DNA of 64,000 bases from Humisphaera borealis (GTDB lineage: Bacteria > Planctomycetota > Phycisphaerae > Tepidisphaerales > Tepidisphaeraceae), in the NCBI RefSeq assembly GCF_015169395.1, contig NZ_CP063458.1, positions 2,728,001 to 2,792,000 on the forward strand. The letters are read 5' to 3'. The translations under genes and the position numbers were made by a program. The notes under the pieces are model-generated. The model was not told the origin of the DNA. It made no database searches and was given only the letters and a program-made list of their open reading frames with translations. Below, one piece after another: positions 31,358-46,365 of the stretch (its first letter is position 1; every line of letters begins with the position of its first letter).

Positions 31358-32366
31358 GGGTCGCTCCTTCGTTCAATGGATGTCTGATTGCACTCCGCAA
31401 CGGTGCAGAGCATCAGCATTGAAGGCCCCGCAACATTCCATCTTCCTGAATACGGAGTGATTCGTGGTTCATCTTCGACTGTTCGACCCGCTATTGAGCC
31501 CGGTGCAGATTTGCTTCCGCGAAGAACCGACCGCTAGCCGCGGCGGTGAATCTTCGCCGTGGTTATGGATTTGAGGCCCGACGGGCCGTGATCCCATAGC
31601 CCAGCCCGAAGGGCTGGGTGCTGGCGAGACAGTGACGCAAGGCCTGAAGGGCCGGAATAATCGACCGCGAGATGCCATTGCCGTTACCACGCCCTTTCAG
31701 GGCTTCCGAGGGGAAGCAACCGCAACCCAGCCCTTCGGGCTGGGCTATGGAATCCCGGCCCGTCGAGCCTGCGAAACGGACTCACAAAACCGTTGCAACG
31801 ATCAAGCGACACACCAATTGCCAATCGCCGAAGGGGCCAGAAGAAAAGCTTGCACTTCGATGCGAACCTAATAAAATACGAACTATTGGGCCGCAGGGGT
31901 CATCGCGCGGAACGTGATAGCAAAGTAGAACGACCGACGGCGTGTGTGAGTCGCCAAGCCGAGGGCCTGGGCCTTCCCGGTGAACACGCGCACGACGCGG
32001 CCTGGCTCACTGCGACTTGCCGCGCGTGGTCCTTCGTACACGCCAACGCGGAGCCGGACGCGCATGACGCTGAAACATCGAATTTCCCAAATCAAAGCCA
32101 TTGGAAACTCGTTGTTCGTTGGATTTGACGTCCTGAAGCGGTTCAGGGATGTCGGGAGCGGTGGCTTTGCTTCGAACAGTGGCATCTGACGTGGGATCTT
32201 GGTGGCTTTCCGCGGGTTTAGTCGCCAGCACCGGCACCGGATTGTGATCGCCGCGCAATGCGATGGCCGTTTTTGAACCCGAGCACCGGTCTTTGTCGTA
32301 TGTAGTGCAGCGGGTGGCCCGCTATGATGCGGTGCACGAACTTTCACTGACCGGACAAAAGGTGGC
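31358..32366. other. 1-kb intergenic region without a supported gene
   Basis: Both strands were read. Short open frames exist but none has a ribosome-binding site, a family match or consistent codon use. It contains the long inverted repeat at 31575-31769, listed separately, and otherwise nothing I can name. Confidence 0.55.
31575..31769. repeat. Long nested inverted repeat
   Basis: Arms of 45 nt at 31575-31619 and 31725-31769 match at about 41 of 45 positions. Each arm carries two hairpins: GGCCCG-ACGGGCC-type and CCCAGCCC-GAA-GGGCTGGG. Inside the spacer AAGGCCTGAAGGGCC (near 31640) and GCCCTTTCAGGGCTT (near 31691) form a second, inner inverted pair. Confidence 0.85.
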
Positions 32367-40521: not shown

Positions 40522-41496
40522 TCACCTCATCGGGTGCCGCTGGAAGAACTCCCACATGAGATCGTTCGCGATCACGTTCTTCCCTGACTTGCCGATGAAG
40601 CCCACGATCGGCTCGCGACCGGGCCAGGTATGACCGGCGTTATCCACCACCACCAGGACGACTTCGGAGCCAGCCTTTCCCGGGCCGAAGGTCTTGATGG
40701 TTCCCGGCATGCCGTCGCCGGCGTTGTCGGCGACCTGTGTTACCTTCGGCTCCGCTGGACACCCGTTAACCCTAATCCAGGTCGCAATCGTCTCGTCGAC
40801 ACCTTTGAACTGCATCGTCGGCGGCACGCGACCCCTCGGGCCGCCGTACGGCACGATCGCATCAGCCTTGCCGTGAAAGTGCATCACCGGCACCGGGCGA
40901 CCCGGTTTGACCTCGCTGACCGCCAACGTGCCCGCGACCGGCGCGATGGCCGCGATTCGGTCCGACAGCTCTGCCGCGAGGCGGTGCGACATCATCCCGC
41001 CATTGGACATGCCCGTCGCGAAGACGCGCTTCTCGTCGACCCGGACCACCGTGGCAAGGTCGTCCAGAATGGCCGCGGTAAACCCGACATCATCAGGCGG
41101 CCCCTTGCCGGGGATTCCTGACGGTTTGGCACTAGCGTTGAAAAAAAGAATGGCCTCGCCGATTCCGGTGCCATTGGGATACACGACTACAAACTTGGCT
41201 TCATCAGACTTCTTGTTGAGGCCCGAGAAGAGGTTCATCCCGGCCGCGTTCATCATCGCCCCGTGAAACGCCAGCACTACAGGCGTGGGGCGTGCCGGAT
41301 CGTGGCCCGGGGGAACATGAACCAGGTACGAACGATCCCAACCGTCGTGTTTCAACAATCGCTTATGGTCGCCGGGCTTGAGAGCAACGGCCCGGGATGC
41401 CGGCGTCGTCGCCGGGACGTCGGCCGCCCGAACGCCTGAGGATAGAATGAGGCTCGCCGAGACAGTGAGAACCAAGCGATACCAGGAGAGTCGCAT
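40522..41496 (-). CDS. Secreted LpqC/PHB depolymerase-type esterase
   Basis: A 324-residue protein with a signal peptide (YRLVLTVSASLILSSGVRA). The alpha/beta-hydrolase domain is of the LpqC / PHB depolymerase / feruloyl esterase type: PVVLAFHGAMMNAAGM (oxyanion), Ser in ATGMSNGGMMSHRLA, Asp in MHFHGKADAIVPY, and His in VDNAGHTWPGRE, a family hallmark. The substrate could be a polyester or plant phenolic ester. It differs clearly from the two hydrolases at 18-20 kb. ATG 41496 was chosen because it begins the signal peptide; longer in-frame starts lack support. Confidence 0.87.
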   Translation of the reverse strand: MRLSWYRLVLTVSASLILSSGVRAADVPATTPASRAVALKPGDHKRLLKHDGWDRSYLVHVPPGHDPARPTPVVLAFHGAMMNAAGMNLFSGLNKKSDEAKFVVVYPNGTGIGEAILFFNASAKPSGIPGKGPPDDVGFTAAILDDLATVVRVDEKRVFATGMSNGGMMSHRLAAELSDRIAAIAPVAGTLAVSEVKPGRPVPVMHFHGKADAIVPYGGPRGRVPPTMQFKGVDETIATWIRVNGCPAEPKVTQVADNAGDGMPGTIKTFGPGKAGSEVVLVVVDNAGHTWPGREPIVGFIGKSGKNVIANDLMWEFFQRHPMR

Positions 41497-41681
41497 GGGG
41501 CGACATGATACCGAGCGGGCCGCCAAAACCCGCTGCGTTTTGGCCTTGCGAATCATTCTCAGCAAAGCCGATATGAGCAAGACATCGCGTACAACGGATT
41601 GGTGACGTCGCGCGGCAACCGCGATCGACGGTTAGGGTAGATCAATCGGTCGCTGACAACATGGCTCGTGGAGGACTCTGC

Positions 41682-42752
41682 ATGTCGCTGCTATCACGTA
41701 GAACCCTTCTGACGACCGCCATCGGCGGGTTTGCAGGCGTCGGCCTATGGCACGCCCGGTCCCGGTTCCTGCCGACGGGCGGTCTGGAGCCTGCAGCACA
41801 GGCAAACCCTTCGCCGAACGGGGAACTGGCTGCATTCCACCGAACCTCCAGAGCCCTGGGCACCAATGTTTCGATCACCATCGCCCACACCGACGAATCC
41901 GTCGCCAATCGCGCGGCGGCAGCAGCATTCGACGAGCTCGAACGCGTCGAGCAATCCCTGAGTGTCTACCGCAACGACAGCCAGCTCGGCATGCTGAACT
42001 CGGCTCAGTCGTTGGCGTCGGCCGACGAACGGATGAGAGCGGTGTTGGCGGCTTCACTGGAGATGTCGCGGCGGACTGCCGGCGCATTCGATGTCACCGT
42101 ACAACCGCTCTGGGAAGTTCATTCCCGTGCCGCCAGGGAGCTTCGATCGCCTACAGAAGCCGAGCTCGCGGCTGTCCGAGAGCGGATCGGCTGGCAGCAC
42201 GTTCTGGTCGCCGGCACCGAGGTCCGGTTCGCCAGGCCGGACATGTCCATCACCTTCAACGGCATCGCACAGGGTTACGCCACCGACCGGGTGAAGCTGG
42301 TGCTTCAGAGTGTCGGCGTGCAGCATGCACTGATCGACATCGGCGAACTGGCCCCGCTTGGGCATAAAGCTCTGGGAACACCGTGGCAGGCAGGCATCCA
42401 GCACCCTCGCCAGGCCGACGCTTATGTCGCCGTCGCGAAGCTGGACGGTCGATCGCTCGCCACCAGTGGCGATTACGCCACCACGTTTACCGACACGGCC
42501 AAAGCAGGTCGAGGCGACAACCATATCTTCGACCCGGCGACGGGGCATTCCCCCACCGCGTTCTCCAGTGTTTCGGTCGTGGCCCCGACAGCCATGGAAG
42601 CCGATGCCCTTTCAACAGCGCTCTTCGTCCTCGGACCCAAACGAGGGCTGAAACTGATCGAATCGTCGGAAGGGGTGGATGCATTGTTTGTCACGCGAGA
42701 AGGCAGGGTCTCTCAGACGGCCGGCTTCCCGACAGTGCGCGATGCCGGATAA
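41682..42752 (+). CDS. apbE: FAD:protein FMN transferase (ApbE family)
   Basis: Transfers FMN from FAD to a Thr/Ser of extracytosolic FMN-binding domains. The 356-residue protein starts with a twin-arginine signal (SRRTLLTTAIGGFAG). Family sequences follow: TSRALGTNVSITI, VEQSLSVYRNDSQLGMLN, GAFDVTVQPLW, ITFNGIAQGYATDRV, ALIDIGELAPLG, ATSGDYATTF, HIFDPATGHSP and PTAMEADALSTALFVLG. ATG 41682 has GGAGG seven bases upstream and was preferred over ATG 41661. A protein with an FMN_bind-like domain follows after 70 bases, the probable substrate. Confidence 0.93.
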   Translation: MSLLSRRTLLTTAIGGFAGVGLWHARSRFLPTGGLEPAAQANPSPNGELAAFHRTSRALGTNVSITIAHTDESVANRAAAAAFDELERVEQSLSVYRNDSQLGMLNSAQSLASADERMRAVLAASLEMSRRTAGAFDVTVQPLWEVHSRAARELRSPTEAELAAVRERIGWQHVLVAGTEVRFARPDMSITFNGIAQGYATDRVKLVLQSVGVQHALIDIGELAPLGHKALGTPWQAGIQHPRQADAYVAVAKLDGRSLATSGDYATTFTDTAKAGRGDNHIFDPATGHSPTAFSSVSVVAPTAMEADALSTALFVLGPKRGLKLIESSEGVDALFVTREGRVSQTAGFPTVRDAG

Positions 42753-42822
42753 GACGCCCCTTTCTGTGCCCTCGTCAACGCCACCGGTAGTTCACCATTC
42801 TCCAGCCGCCCGGGTGCGAAAC

Positions 42823-44088
42823 ATGAACCAATACCGACGTATACGGCCCCTCTACGTTTGCCTGTTAATGGCTGCCCTGCTGTCGTTCGACGTTCGTGCC
42901 GATTCCCTCGAAGGCACCAACGGCACCACCATGACCGGCAAGATCGTCGCGCGCGACGATAAGTTTGTGACCATCGAGATTCTGGTAAGTGGTAAGCCGA
43001 CACAGCGCAAGATCCCGGTCAATCTCGTCAAGGCGATCACCGTTGACGGCAAGCGCGAAGTTCTCGGCCCCGGGGGCGTCGCCAAGCCTGGTGCGCCAGC
43101 GGGCAACACCGGCGTTCAGCGATCGCGTCCGGAGATTGAAGCCCTCATCGCTTCGGCGGCGACGCCTCCCGACTGGCTCGATGCCGTCCAGCTCAACCTG
43201 CCCAAGTCGCTCGACCTCTCCTGGCCGGAGAAAGCGGAAGGCCCCTGGAACAACCAGAAGAACATGGGGCAATACATCTGGGACGTGATCAACACCAACC
43301 CGAGTAAATGGCGGGAGGGTGTAAGGCTGATGCATCACGTCATGGATCAAAACAAGGCCGACCGCGAGATGCAGATGCGGGCATCGGCCGCGCTCGCGGG
43401 GATGTACCACCACCTCTTCCAAGACTACCCGCACGCCGCCTACTGGTTCCGAAAAGCCGGCACACGGCAGGATCCCGTCGGCCTGGCCGAGTGCTATTGG
43501 AAGCTGGGAAACAAAGCCATGGCGGTCGAGTTGCTGACCGGCCTGCGATCCATTCCGCCGACGGCGATCAAGCTCTGGGCCGACATGGGCGAAACCGCCA
43601 AGGCGATCCAAACGGGTGAACTCTTTGCCAAGAGCGGCTCAGCCGACCTGGGCTACCTCTACTCCGCCGACGCCCTGCGTCTGGCTGGCCGCTACAAAGA
43701 AGCGCTGGCGTACTACAACAAAGTGCTCGCGGTACCGGACGACAAGCGCAACAAGCGGAGCAAGGACCGCGCCAAGGGCGCCATCGAGGCGATCCAGCTC
43801 TTCGATACCCTCGACATTGCCAAGGTCGCCGACGGGACGTACACATCAAGCAGCCTTGGCTACGAGGCGCCGGTCGAGATCGAAGTGAAAGTAGCCGGCG
43901 GAAAGATCGAAGCCCTGAAGGTGACCAAGCACCGGGAGAAACAGTACTACGCCTCGATCACCGATACGCCGGCTCGGATCATCGCCAAGCAGTCGGTGAA
44001 AGGAATCGATGCCACGAGCCGGGCGACGATTACGTCCGAAGCGATCATCACCGCAACGGCCAAGGCGCTGCAATCGGGGCAGAAGTGA
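42823..44088 (+). CDS. Secreted TPR-like protein with C-terminal FMN-binding domain
   Basis: A 421-residue protein. Signal peptide at 1-26 (PLYVCLLMAALLSFDVRA). Residues about 28-70 form a small SHD1-like strand domain. Residues about 110-340 are helical with TPR-like units (AGMYHHLFQDYPHAAYWFRK, YSADALRLAGRYKEALAYYN). Residues about 343-415 are an FMN_bind-like domain (VADGTYTSSSLGYEAPVEIE). The flavin attachment region reads D396-ATSRAT402, close to the ApbE consensus Dxx(S/T)GAT, with Arg for Gly. Thr402 is the predicted attachment residue. It lies between apbE and a membrane polyferredoxin, so it likely carries covalent FMN in electron transfer. Confidence 0.82.
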   Translation: MNQYRRIRPLYVCLLMAALLSFDVRADSLEGTNGTTMTGKIVARDDKFVTIEILVSGKPTQRKIPVNLVKAITVDGKREVLGPGGVAKPGAPAGNTGVQRSRPEIEALIASAATPPDWLDAVQLNLPKSLDLSWPEKAEGPWNNQKNMGQYIWDVINTNPSKWREGVRLMHHVMDQNKADREMQMRASAALAGMYHHLFQDYPHAAYWFRKAGTRQDPVGLAECYWKLGNKAMAVELLTGLRSIPPTAIKLWADMGETAKAIQTGELFAKSGSADLGYLYSADALRLAGRYKEALAYYNKVLAVPDDKRNKRSKDRAKGAIEAIQLFDTLDIAKVADGTYTSSSLGYEAPVEIEVKVAGGKIEALKVTKHREKQYYASITDTPARIIAKQSVKGIDATSRATITSEAIITATAKALQSGQK

Positions 44089-44101
44089 CTGAGAGAGCTT
44101 T

Positions 44102-44203
44102 GCCACAAATCCCACAAATGAGGACACGAATGAAGAGCTTCATTTGGCGCATGACTCGGTCGATCTGATCCCCATTTGTGTTTTCATTCGTGAGATTCGT
44201 GGC
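44102..44203. repeat. Inverted repeat upstream of the polyferredoxin gene
   Basis: Arms of 31 nt at 44102-44132 and 44173-44203 (GCCAC-AATC-CAC-AATGA pattern) match at about 24 of 31 positions, and all differences are transitions. They resemble the outer arms of the nested repeats at 8937 and 29424. Confidence 0.7.
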
Positions 44204-44238
44204 TAAGCCCTCGCCTGCTCCGCCAAAAGGGATCCAAT

Positions 44239-46365
44239 TTGCGACTCGACTGGTTCCTACCCTTCCACCGGCGCACGACGGCGACCTATTCGCCGCCGGT
44301 TTACAACCTGCCGATGCGGCTGCTGCGCGGCATCCTGCCTGCGTCGCTGCGATCGCAGGAGAACACCGTGAAACCCGGGCCGGTTCGAAGGCTGCTCAGG
44401 CGCATCGGGCCGAGCCTCGCCGCCTCCCCCTTTCGGCGGCTCTCTCAGACGCTCTGCTTCGTCCTGTTTGCCATACTTTTCTTCTACGTCGCGTTTCCGT
44501 ACACCGCCAAGCCCGCGAAAGTCTGGCCGGGCTGGGTGGCGGCGAACGTAAACGCCGAGACCGGCGTGGTCGAAGTTGAAGCTCCCGCCGGCGCGACCGA
44601 CCGCCCACCGGCTGGGGCAACGGTCTACGCCGCCGAGCCTCCCCCCGCCGACGCCGCGGCGTCGTCCACCGGTCCACAGCATTTCGGCCAATTCACCGTC
44701 GCGGCTGCGGCGACGCCAAATCTGCTCACCCTGACGCCGACCTCAAAGCCGACCGAAGACGCGCTCGGTCGGATGTCGTTCAGCACCGCCAAGTGGACGC
44801 TTTCCGAAAAAGCCCCCGGCGACTGGCCCAGCCATTACGCCGACGACCTGGCGAAGAAGGAAAAGATCGCCGCCGAGGGCATTCTGATCATCGATCCCCT
44901 GGTCAGCCTCTCGACAGCCGTCGCGGCAAAATCTTGGGTTTGGTCGCTCACCTTTGCCGGCATCATCCTGGCGATCAGTGTTTTCATCCCGCGCGGGTTC
45001 TGTGGCTACATCTGCCCGTTGGGGACGCTCATCGATCTCTTCGACTGGCTGATCGGCAAACGCGTCACCCGCTTCCGCGTCGCCGACGACGGGTGGTGGG
45101 TGCACATCAAGTATTACACGCTGCTGACCGTGATGATCGCGGCGATGTTCGGCGTGCTGCTGAGCGGGTTCGTCGCCGCGATTCCGGTCATCACGCGCGG
45201 ATTCCTGTTCATCTTTAAACCGTTCCACGACGCCTCGGCCCGCGGCTGGCACAATGTGCCGCCGATGAACGGCGGGCAGATCCTGTCGATCGTGCTCTTC
45301 TTCGGCGTTTTGGCGATGGGGTTCTGGAAGCCGCGGTTCTGGTGCAAGTACGTCTGCCCGAGCGGCGCGGTCTTCTCCGTCGGCAACTTGCTGCGTGCGA
45401 CCGAACGTAAGGTGGAGAGTAGTTGCATCAAGTGCAACAAGTGTGTCGAGATCTGCCCGTTCGACGCGATCAAGCCCGACTTCACCACCCGCGGCACCGA
45501 TTGCACGCTCTGCCAAAGCTGCGGCGGCGTTTGCCCGACGCACGCGATCAAATTCGTATCGCGCTGGAACCGGATCGAGTTGAAAGTCATCAACGACCCG
45601 CCGACACACGAGACACCGATTGGCCGGCGCGGCTTTCTGTCGGCAGGGGTCGGTGTCGCGGCGGCGGCGGCGGTGGGTATTGGCTCGGCCGTCGGCATTC
45701 GCAAGACCGGCGCAAAGCTCGCCGACGGCACCGTGCCGCTGCCCGTCCGCCCGCCCGGAAGCGTTCCGGAAGAGGACTTTCTGCAACTGTGCATCCGTTG
45801 TGGCGAGTGCTTCCGCGCCTGCCCGAACGACGTCCTGCAACCGCTTGGCTTTCAACAGGGCCTCGAAGGTTTATGGACTCCCGCTGTCAAAGCCGATTGG
45901 GCCGGCTGCGAACCCAGTTGCAACGGCTGCGGCCAGGTCTGCCCGACCGGTGCCATCCGCGCCCTGTCGCTCGCAGAGAAGAAGTCCGCCCGCATGGGCC
46001 TGGCGATCGTCAACGAAAAGACGTGTCTTCCCTTCGCCGGCAAGGAAGAGTGCCAGCTCTGCGTTGATGAATGCAACTCGGCCGGCTATCACGCGATCGA
46101 GTTCATCCGCCACGGCACCAAGGCCGACGAGGAAGGCAACCCCGTCGACGGCACCGGCATGCTCGCCCCGGTCGTGCGGGCCGATCTGTGTGTCGGCTGC
46201 GGCCTGTGTCAGACACGGTGCTATGCGATCAACGTGGCGGAAAAGAAGCTGCTCACCAAGTCGGCGATCATCATCGAAGCCGGAGAGGGGAAAGAAGACC
46301 GGTTGATGTCGGGGTCGTATGTGGAGCTGCGGATCAAGGGGAAGAAGGTGGAGAACGCGACCTGA
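44239..46365 (+). CDS. Membrane polyferredoxin, fused NapH/NosR-like and NapG-like parts
   Basis: A 708-residue protein with about four membrane helices (LCFVLFAILFFYVAF near 75, WVWSLTFAGIILAISVFI near 240, LLTVMIAAMFGVLLSGFVAA near 300, ILSIVLFFGVLAMGFW near 355). The NapH/NosR-like part carries CGYICPLG and CKYVCPSG, then two 4Fe-4S motifs, CIKCNKCVEICP and CTLCQSCGGVCP. At residues 463-475 lies an internal twin-arginine-like segment (GRRGFLSAGVG), followed by a NapG/MauM-like part with CIRCGECFRACP, CEPSCNGCGQVCP, CQLCVDEC and CVGCGLCQTRC. It would pass electrons between the quinone pool or cytosol and the flavinylated neighbour. The start is TTG 44239, with AAAAGGGA upstream. Confidence 0.88.
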   Translation: MRLDWFLPFHRRTTATYSPPVYNLPMRLLRGILPASLRSQENTVKPGPVRRLLRRIGPSLAASPFRRLSQTLCFVLFAILFFYVAFPYTAKPAKVWPGWVAANVNAETGVVEVEAPAGATDRPPAGATVYAAEPPPADAAASSTGPQHFGQFTVAAAATPNLLTLTPTSKPTEDALGRMSFSTAKWTLSEKAPGDWPSHYADDLAKKEKIAAEGILIIDPLVSLSTAVAAKSWVWSLTFAGIILAISVFIPRGFCGYICPLGTLIDLFDWLIGKRVTRFRVADDGWWVHIKYYTLLTVMIAAMFGVLLSGFVAAIPVITRGFLFIFKPFHDASARGWHNVPPMNGGQILSIVLFFGVLAMGFWKPRFWCKYVCPSGAVFSVGNLLRATERKVESSCIKCNKCVEICPFDAIKPDFTTRGTDCTLCQSCGGVCPTHAIKFVSRWNRIELKVINDPPTHETPIGRRGFLSAGVGVAAAAAVGIGSAVGIRKTGAKLADGTVPLPVRPPGSVPEEDFLQLCIRCGECFRACPNDVLQPLGFQQGLEGLWTPAVKADWAGCEPSCNGCGQVCPTGAIRALSLAEKKSARMGLAIVNEKTCLPFAGKEECQLCVDECNSAGYHAIEFIRHGTKADEEGNPVDGTGMLAPVVRADLCVGCGLCQTRCYAINVAEKKLLTKSAIIIEAGEGKEDRLMSGSYVELRIKGKKVENAT

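Follow-up and report, generated by a model that had tools for sequence, protein, structure and literature searches.

A TPR-FMN_bind protein and a NapH-NapG fusion polyferredoxin: a candidate extracytosolic flavin module of Planctomycetota and Verrucomicrobiota

The window analysed here, a stretch of 64,000 nucleotides from Humisphaera borealis (contig NZ_CP063458.1, positions 2,728,001 to 2,792,000), carries three consecutive genes for an ApbE, an exported protein joining a TPR-like solenoid to an FMN_bind domain (TPR-FMN), and a NapH-NapG fusion polyferredoxin (NapHG); their features are collected in Table 1. An earlier note on this DNA had described the first product as a Tat-signal ApbE, and this was borne out: a Pfam profile search matched it to PF02424 (E 5.3e-72, 243 bits, cut-off 25.6), and the Tat signal SRRTLL occupies residues 5-10 of its N-terminus, MSLLSRRTLL. 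The divergent neighbour of this gene (40522-41580) scored above the NF050058 cut-off and encodes an exported PHA-depolymerase/LpqC-type esterase; it is not conserved at the other module loci. A second ApbE of the genome, apparently a lipoprotein, is found elsewhere (G000:C1:467364-468578, L034:9365-10579) amid genes for Tat-signal Gfo/Idh/MocA-like oxidoreductases, with no FMN_bind gene nearby. Positions 31574-31618 of the window match the Acido-Lenti-1 RNA, barely over the Rfam gathering score.

Table 1. Features of the three-gene module, in positions of the window.
Feature	Position	Strand	Basis
ApbE (FAD:protein FMN transferase), 356 aa	41682..42752	+	PF02424 match; GGAGG precedes start
TPR-FMN carrier, 421 aa, exported	42823..44088	+	Pfam; AlphaFold; 29-row family alignment
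TPR-like alpha-solenoid, residues 102-329	43126..43809	+	model helices; TPR matches
FMN_bind domain, residues 338-420	43834..44082	+	PF04205; profile and Foldseek matches to 8p2b
DATSRAT, putative flavinylation motif, residues 396-402	44008..44028	+	Thr402 aligned with Thr67 of 8p2b
NapH-NapG fusion polyferredoxin, 708 aa, TTG start	44239..46365	+	NCBIfam napH/napG; family alignment
NapHG first transmembrane helix, residues about 62-86	44422..44496	+	hydrophobicity; model helix 64-85
NapHG extra beta-domain, ~95 aa, between TM1 and TM2	44521..44808	+	pLDDT mostly about 90 at 100-190
NapHG NapH CX3CP motif no. 1 (C255, C259)	45001..45018	+	kept 24/24
NapHG NapH CX3CP motif no. 2 (C369, C373)	45343..45360	+	kept 24/24
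NapHG cytosolic-side [4Fe-4S] sites, two (C396-C432)	45424..45534	+	8 Cys, 24/24
NapHG internal Tat signal RRGFL and weakly hydrophobic TM5	45625..45708	+	RR 24/24
NapHG NapG-like part, four [4Fe-4S] sites, predicted extracytosolic	45751..46221	+	napG model; 16 Cys 24/24

The second gene had been read as a secreted protein of TPR-like helices with a C-terminal FMN_bind-type domain bearing DATSRAT, and both Pfam and the AlphaFold model agree. The C-terminus matched FMN_bind PF04205 above the curated cut-off (40.2 bits, cut-off 22), and several TPR models hit the helical part, TPR_14 above its own cut-off. In the model, built from a 29-row alignment (mean pLDDT 88.2), a signal helix is followed by a small beta-domain (28-80), the solenoid and the C-terminal domain, which has an FMN_bind-type fold of three strands and two helices. 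Searched whole with Foldseek, the model returned chiefly generic TPR matches; its FMN_bind part matched domain 1 of CbFMN4 (PDB 8p2b) both by profile (E 7e-14) and by Foldseek (TMt 0.80, rmsd 2.2 A). In the pairwise alignment Thr402 of DATSRAT, the residue the earlier note had named as the FMN site, faces Thr67 of 8p2b, the residue to which FMN is covalently attached in the crystal (PMC10339131). The window protein has a variant of the ApbE-substrate motif Dxx[ST]GA[TS], with Arg400 at the Gly position. Among 29 homologues D396 is kept in 28, A401 in all and T402 in 28 (Ser in the remaining one), while position 400 varies (15 Gly, 8 Ser, 2 Arg); we therefore take Arg400 as a tolerated variant. 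A phosphoester-linked FMN on Thr402, put there by ApbE, is thus predicted from the sequence. A homologue at L027:3745-5394, adjoining an ApbE gene, has two FMN_bind-like repeats.

The third product matched the NCBIfam models napH (E 3e-18, residues 215-439) and napG (E 2e-32, residues 461-667) as well as Fer4_5 (PF12801; 46.8 bits, cut-off 22, two stretches). In the Pfam search no FMN_bind was found on this chain; that domain sits on the separate TPR protein. The TTG start at 44239 is supported by homologues sharing the N-terminus MRLDxFLP. An alignment of 24 homologues keeps all 28 cluster-type cysteines (those of both CX3CP motifs, eight of the ferredoxin sites and sixteen of NapG) without exception, along with the pair R463-R464, which in most of them is followed by xFL; together with the napH/napG matches this upholds the fusion with an internal twin-arginine-like segment that had been proposed. 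Hydrophobicity and charges indicate a positively charged N-terminus ahead of TM1, four Sec-type helices and a fifth helix less hydrophobic than TM1 and TM2 (summed scale 4.8 vs about 0.1; the weak TM3 is similar at 4.6), with positive residues downstream of it in most of the 24 homologues. TatC is encoded in the genome, and the layout around the arginine pair predicts Tat-dependent export of the NapG half. The AlphaFold model of NapHG is of low confidence (pLDDT 71.6) and holds no cofactors. Its extra beta-domain (residues about 95-190) is shared with the homologues at L009 and L010; the others are mostly without it. Most relatives lack the 150-bp gap between the TPR-FMN and NapHG genes (44089-44238), which contains repeat sequence of the CACGAATGA type; six more partial copies of it occur in the genome.

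Both Planctomycetota and Verrucomicrobiota have relatives of TPR-FMN, adjoined by NapHG and often with ApbE upstream; the profile E-values together with conservation across two phyla rule out chance as the origin of the module. We scanned 244 evenly drawn planctomycete genomes, assigning proteins to the NapHG clade above 640 bits and to TPR-FMN above 100 bits. The NapHG scores were bimodal, with 15 copies at 646-1009 bits and the next at 318 bits. These 15 copies were spread over 12 genomes, all 12 of which also held TPR-FMN, vs 1 of the 232 others, which has TPR-FMN alone. For fourteen of the copies the distance to a TPR-FMN gene is no more than about 3 kb; the remaining one sits at the edge of its contig. 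As a rule the two genes are neighbours with short spacing, and several pairs overlap by 1-4 bp; ApbE adjoins the pair in 11 of about 25 loci. The co-occurrence of three genes that the earlier note had claimed thus holds nearly without exception for TPR-FMN and NapHG, while ApbE is adjacent in about half of the loci only. Of 195 genomes drawn from the phylum of a verrucomicrobial carrier, 2 have the NapHG clade; in the second of them (L119) a TPR-FMN gene, FMN_bind included, likewise lies immediately upstream. A divergent second sub-family of both proteins also exists and lies beside ApbE in two loci (L068, L073).

Within about 6 kb of other planctomycete NapH-NapG fusions, ApbE or a recognised FMN gene was found at 0 of 19 loci, as judged by a motif scan, the ApbE profile and an FMN profile that was built from the TPR-FMN family alone and overlooked the distant FMN_bind of L033; the FMN link is therefore specific to this NapHG clade. 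Some of the other fusions (L114, L115, L106, L113) carry a C-terminal DUF6599 and have no flavin gene nearby; they are a separate polyferredoxin type. The FMN_bind gene of L033, the only other one in the genome (L033:11720-13195, G000:C1:866719-868194), encodes a NosR/PceC-like protein of 491 aa (FMN_bind and Fer4_5) and immediately follows a gene for a large, exported, oxidoreductase-like product; no ApbE lies close by.

The co-phylogeny of TPR-FMN and NapHG was moderate (r 0.51, with 4 of 5000 permutations as high). A maximum-likelihood tree groups NapHG of the window with four verrucomicrobial proteins and one from another planctomycete, as a starred set of six. This mixed set points to transfer of NapHG between phyla, although some rows, several of them from metagenome assemblies, could be contaminants; the genome of the window, for its part, consists of one contig of 7.19 Mb.

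A conserved terminal enzyme was sought by clustering all open reading frames of about 30 module loci, and none was found beside the module. TPR-FMN, NapHG and ApbE recurred; a minority of loci had GH62, a Vgb-like propeller or ECF-sigma/FecR-type genes. In two lineages (L026, and the genus to which L008 and L067 belong) the TPR-FMN and NapHG genes flank a gene of GH62, an arabinofuranosidase family. A gene for a Vgb-lyase-like beta-propeller (L067:5045-6217, L008:2615-3643) stands in the operon alongside GH62 in that one genus. Across genomes, GH62 was present in 6 of the 12 with the module vs 10 of the 232 others (p 2e-5, genomes unmatched for size). As a specific partner GH62 was rejected: without the window genome and the L008/L067 genus the p-value weakens to 0.009, the control family GH43 is likewise enriched (5/12 vs 31/232, p 0.02), and the GH62 proteins of module genomes do not form one clade. 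The association is kept as suggestive of a lifestyle link to polymer degradation rather than as proof of a partner.

We consider that the module is probably a quinone-coupled transmembrane Fe-S relay to an exported docking protein with covalent FMN, belonging to the NapH-like flavinylated class. On this reading ApbE would move FMN, taken from FAD, to Thr402 of the exported carrier. The NapH half of NapHG would sit in the membrane and trade electrons with quinol, and the NapG half, bearing four [4Fe-4S] clusters, would be exported behind TM5 by Tat, already folded. Electrons may then cross the membrane via the cytosolic-side ferredoxin sites and the NapG half. The solenoid of TPR-FMN, judging from its model, is a probable docking surface, through which the protein could bind NapHG or a separate terminal redox enzyme and relay electrons. 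By analogy, movement between quinone and the exported FMN carrier is expected, most likely with quinol as donor and, as acceptor, a molecule outside the cytosol that is encoded elsewhere. Both the acceptor and the direction rest on this analogy, since the module has no terminal oxidoreductase conserved next to it. Arg400 in place of the usual Gly, the loci where ApbE is not adjacent, the low-confidence NapHG model and the only moderate co-phylogeny count against this relay.

Electrons might also run the other way. A midpoint of -184 mV lies below menaquinone, so that flow from an FMN at this potential to quinone would be downhill and favoured, which also counts against the relay as oriented above. 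This is the value for a related FMN_bind protein (PMC10339131). An extracytosolic dehydrogenase, acting for instance on released sugars or alcohols, would then reduce the TPR-bound FMN, and NapHG would pass the electrons to the quinone pool. An alcohol oxidase accompanies NapH-like clusters in 172 genomes according to the main text of Meheust 2021 (PMC8238504), and the GH62 genes within the operon in two lineages, like the enrichment of GH62 among module genomes, would fit this direction. However, GH62 is a hydrolase and not a redox enzyme, its link to the module is partly one of lifestyle, as the GH43 control indicates, and a dehydrogenase gene conserved beside the module was not found. We regard this direction as possible, if rather unlikely.

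It is less probable still that the electrons serve to assemble or protect exported proteins (thiols, methionine sulfoxide, metal centres) that the TPR domain binds as clients. The solenoid does suggest protein clients, some loci adjoin ECF sigma/FecR-type genes, and no small-molecule enzyme is linked to the module; yet no Dsb, Msr or metal-chaperone gene was seen adjoining it, and nothing supports the idea directly, which leaves it improbable. That the module is an electron donor for polysaccharide monooxygenases (LPMOs), as the context of polysaccharide genes might suggest, can be practically dismissed for AA10, the family searched, which occurs in 6 of the 244 planctomycete genomes and in none of the 12 with the module, so that an AA10 LPMO is ruled out as the acceptor.

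Returning to the quinone-coupled relay, a broader and distinctly doubtful extension would see the module as a horizontally shared, separate respiratory outlet or inlet of PVC bacteria, connecting the quinone pool with the chemistry by which plant polysaccharides are broken down outside the cytosol; its TPR domain would recruit an exported redox partner. Both Planctomycetota and Verrucomicrobiota rank as major degraders of polymers, and the electron routes from their inner membrane to exported enzymes are poorly known. The module offers a compact, testable case, in which a predicted flavinylated docking protein and a membrane polyferredoxin travel together across two phyla.

Several known systems resemble parts of this arrangement. 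Linkage of ApbE flavinylation to membrane Fe-S partners, which the earlier note had described as known in bacteria, is indeed on record: the main text of Meheust 2021 describes NapH-like proteins with FMN domains as a broad class, with substrates mostly unknown, and a sub-class of 539 clusters in which the FMN domain is a separate gene (PMC8238504). Like that class, the window clusters ApbE, an FMN_bind protein and a NapH-like membrane Fe-S protein. By its sequence features the module is a member, as every feature that could be checked was found: NapHG is a PF12801 (Fer4_5) membrane protein with several TM helices, and the adjoining genes carry PF04205 (FMN_bind) and PF02424 (ApbE). Two fusions set it apart from the class as described there, one joining the FMN domain to a TPR solenoid and one joining NapH to NapG; the main text mentions neither TPR nor Planctomycetota (PMC8238504).

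In NosR/PceC an FMN_bind domain is likewise combined with a NapH-like Fe-S membrane protein, but there the FMN domain is on the chain of the NapH part and a partner enzyme is linked, neither of which applies to the window module. The FMN_bind domains of CbFMN4 and SaFMN3 (8p2b) share their fold and the aligned FMN-bearing Thr with TPR-FMN; unlike it, they form multi-FMN repeats and have no TPR domain (PMC10339131). NapGH of E. coli and Wolinella, a quinol dehydrogenase as cited in Tooke 2017 (PMC5449189), resembles NapHG in the CX3CP motifs and two cytosolic clusters of NapH and in the Tat export and four clusters of NapG; its parts, however, are separate proteins, without flavin and linked to nitrate reductase.

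The closest counterpart of NapHG is the polyferredoxin PFD (Q1NSB0) of the delta-proteobacterium MLMS-1, a NapH-NapG fusion needing Sec and Tat, whose dual insertion was tested (Tooke 2017, PMC5449189). As that account describes it, PFD has five predicted TM segments with a twin arginine just ahead of the fifth and [4Fe-4S] parts on the cytosolic and exported sides, and so has NapHG, where NapH and NapG likewise share one chain and a conserved arginine pair precedes a weakly hydrophobic last TM segment. Unlike NapHG, PFD is not reported there with an FMN protein or ApbE (PMC5449189). The novelty supposed earlier therefore does not extend to the joining of NapH and NapG on one chain around a Tat signal. 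Searches of the main texts of openly accessible papers returned nothing relevant on a protein combining TPR with FMN_bind, on NapHG in either phylum or on the three-gene module. What appears to be new is the TPR-FMN carrier, together with the fact that it pairs exclusively with one clade of NapHG. The module connects ApbE flavinylation with dual Sec/Tat polyferredoxins, two themes that have been published separately.
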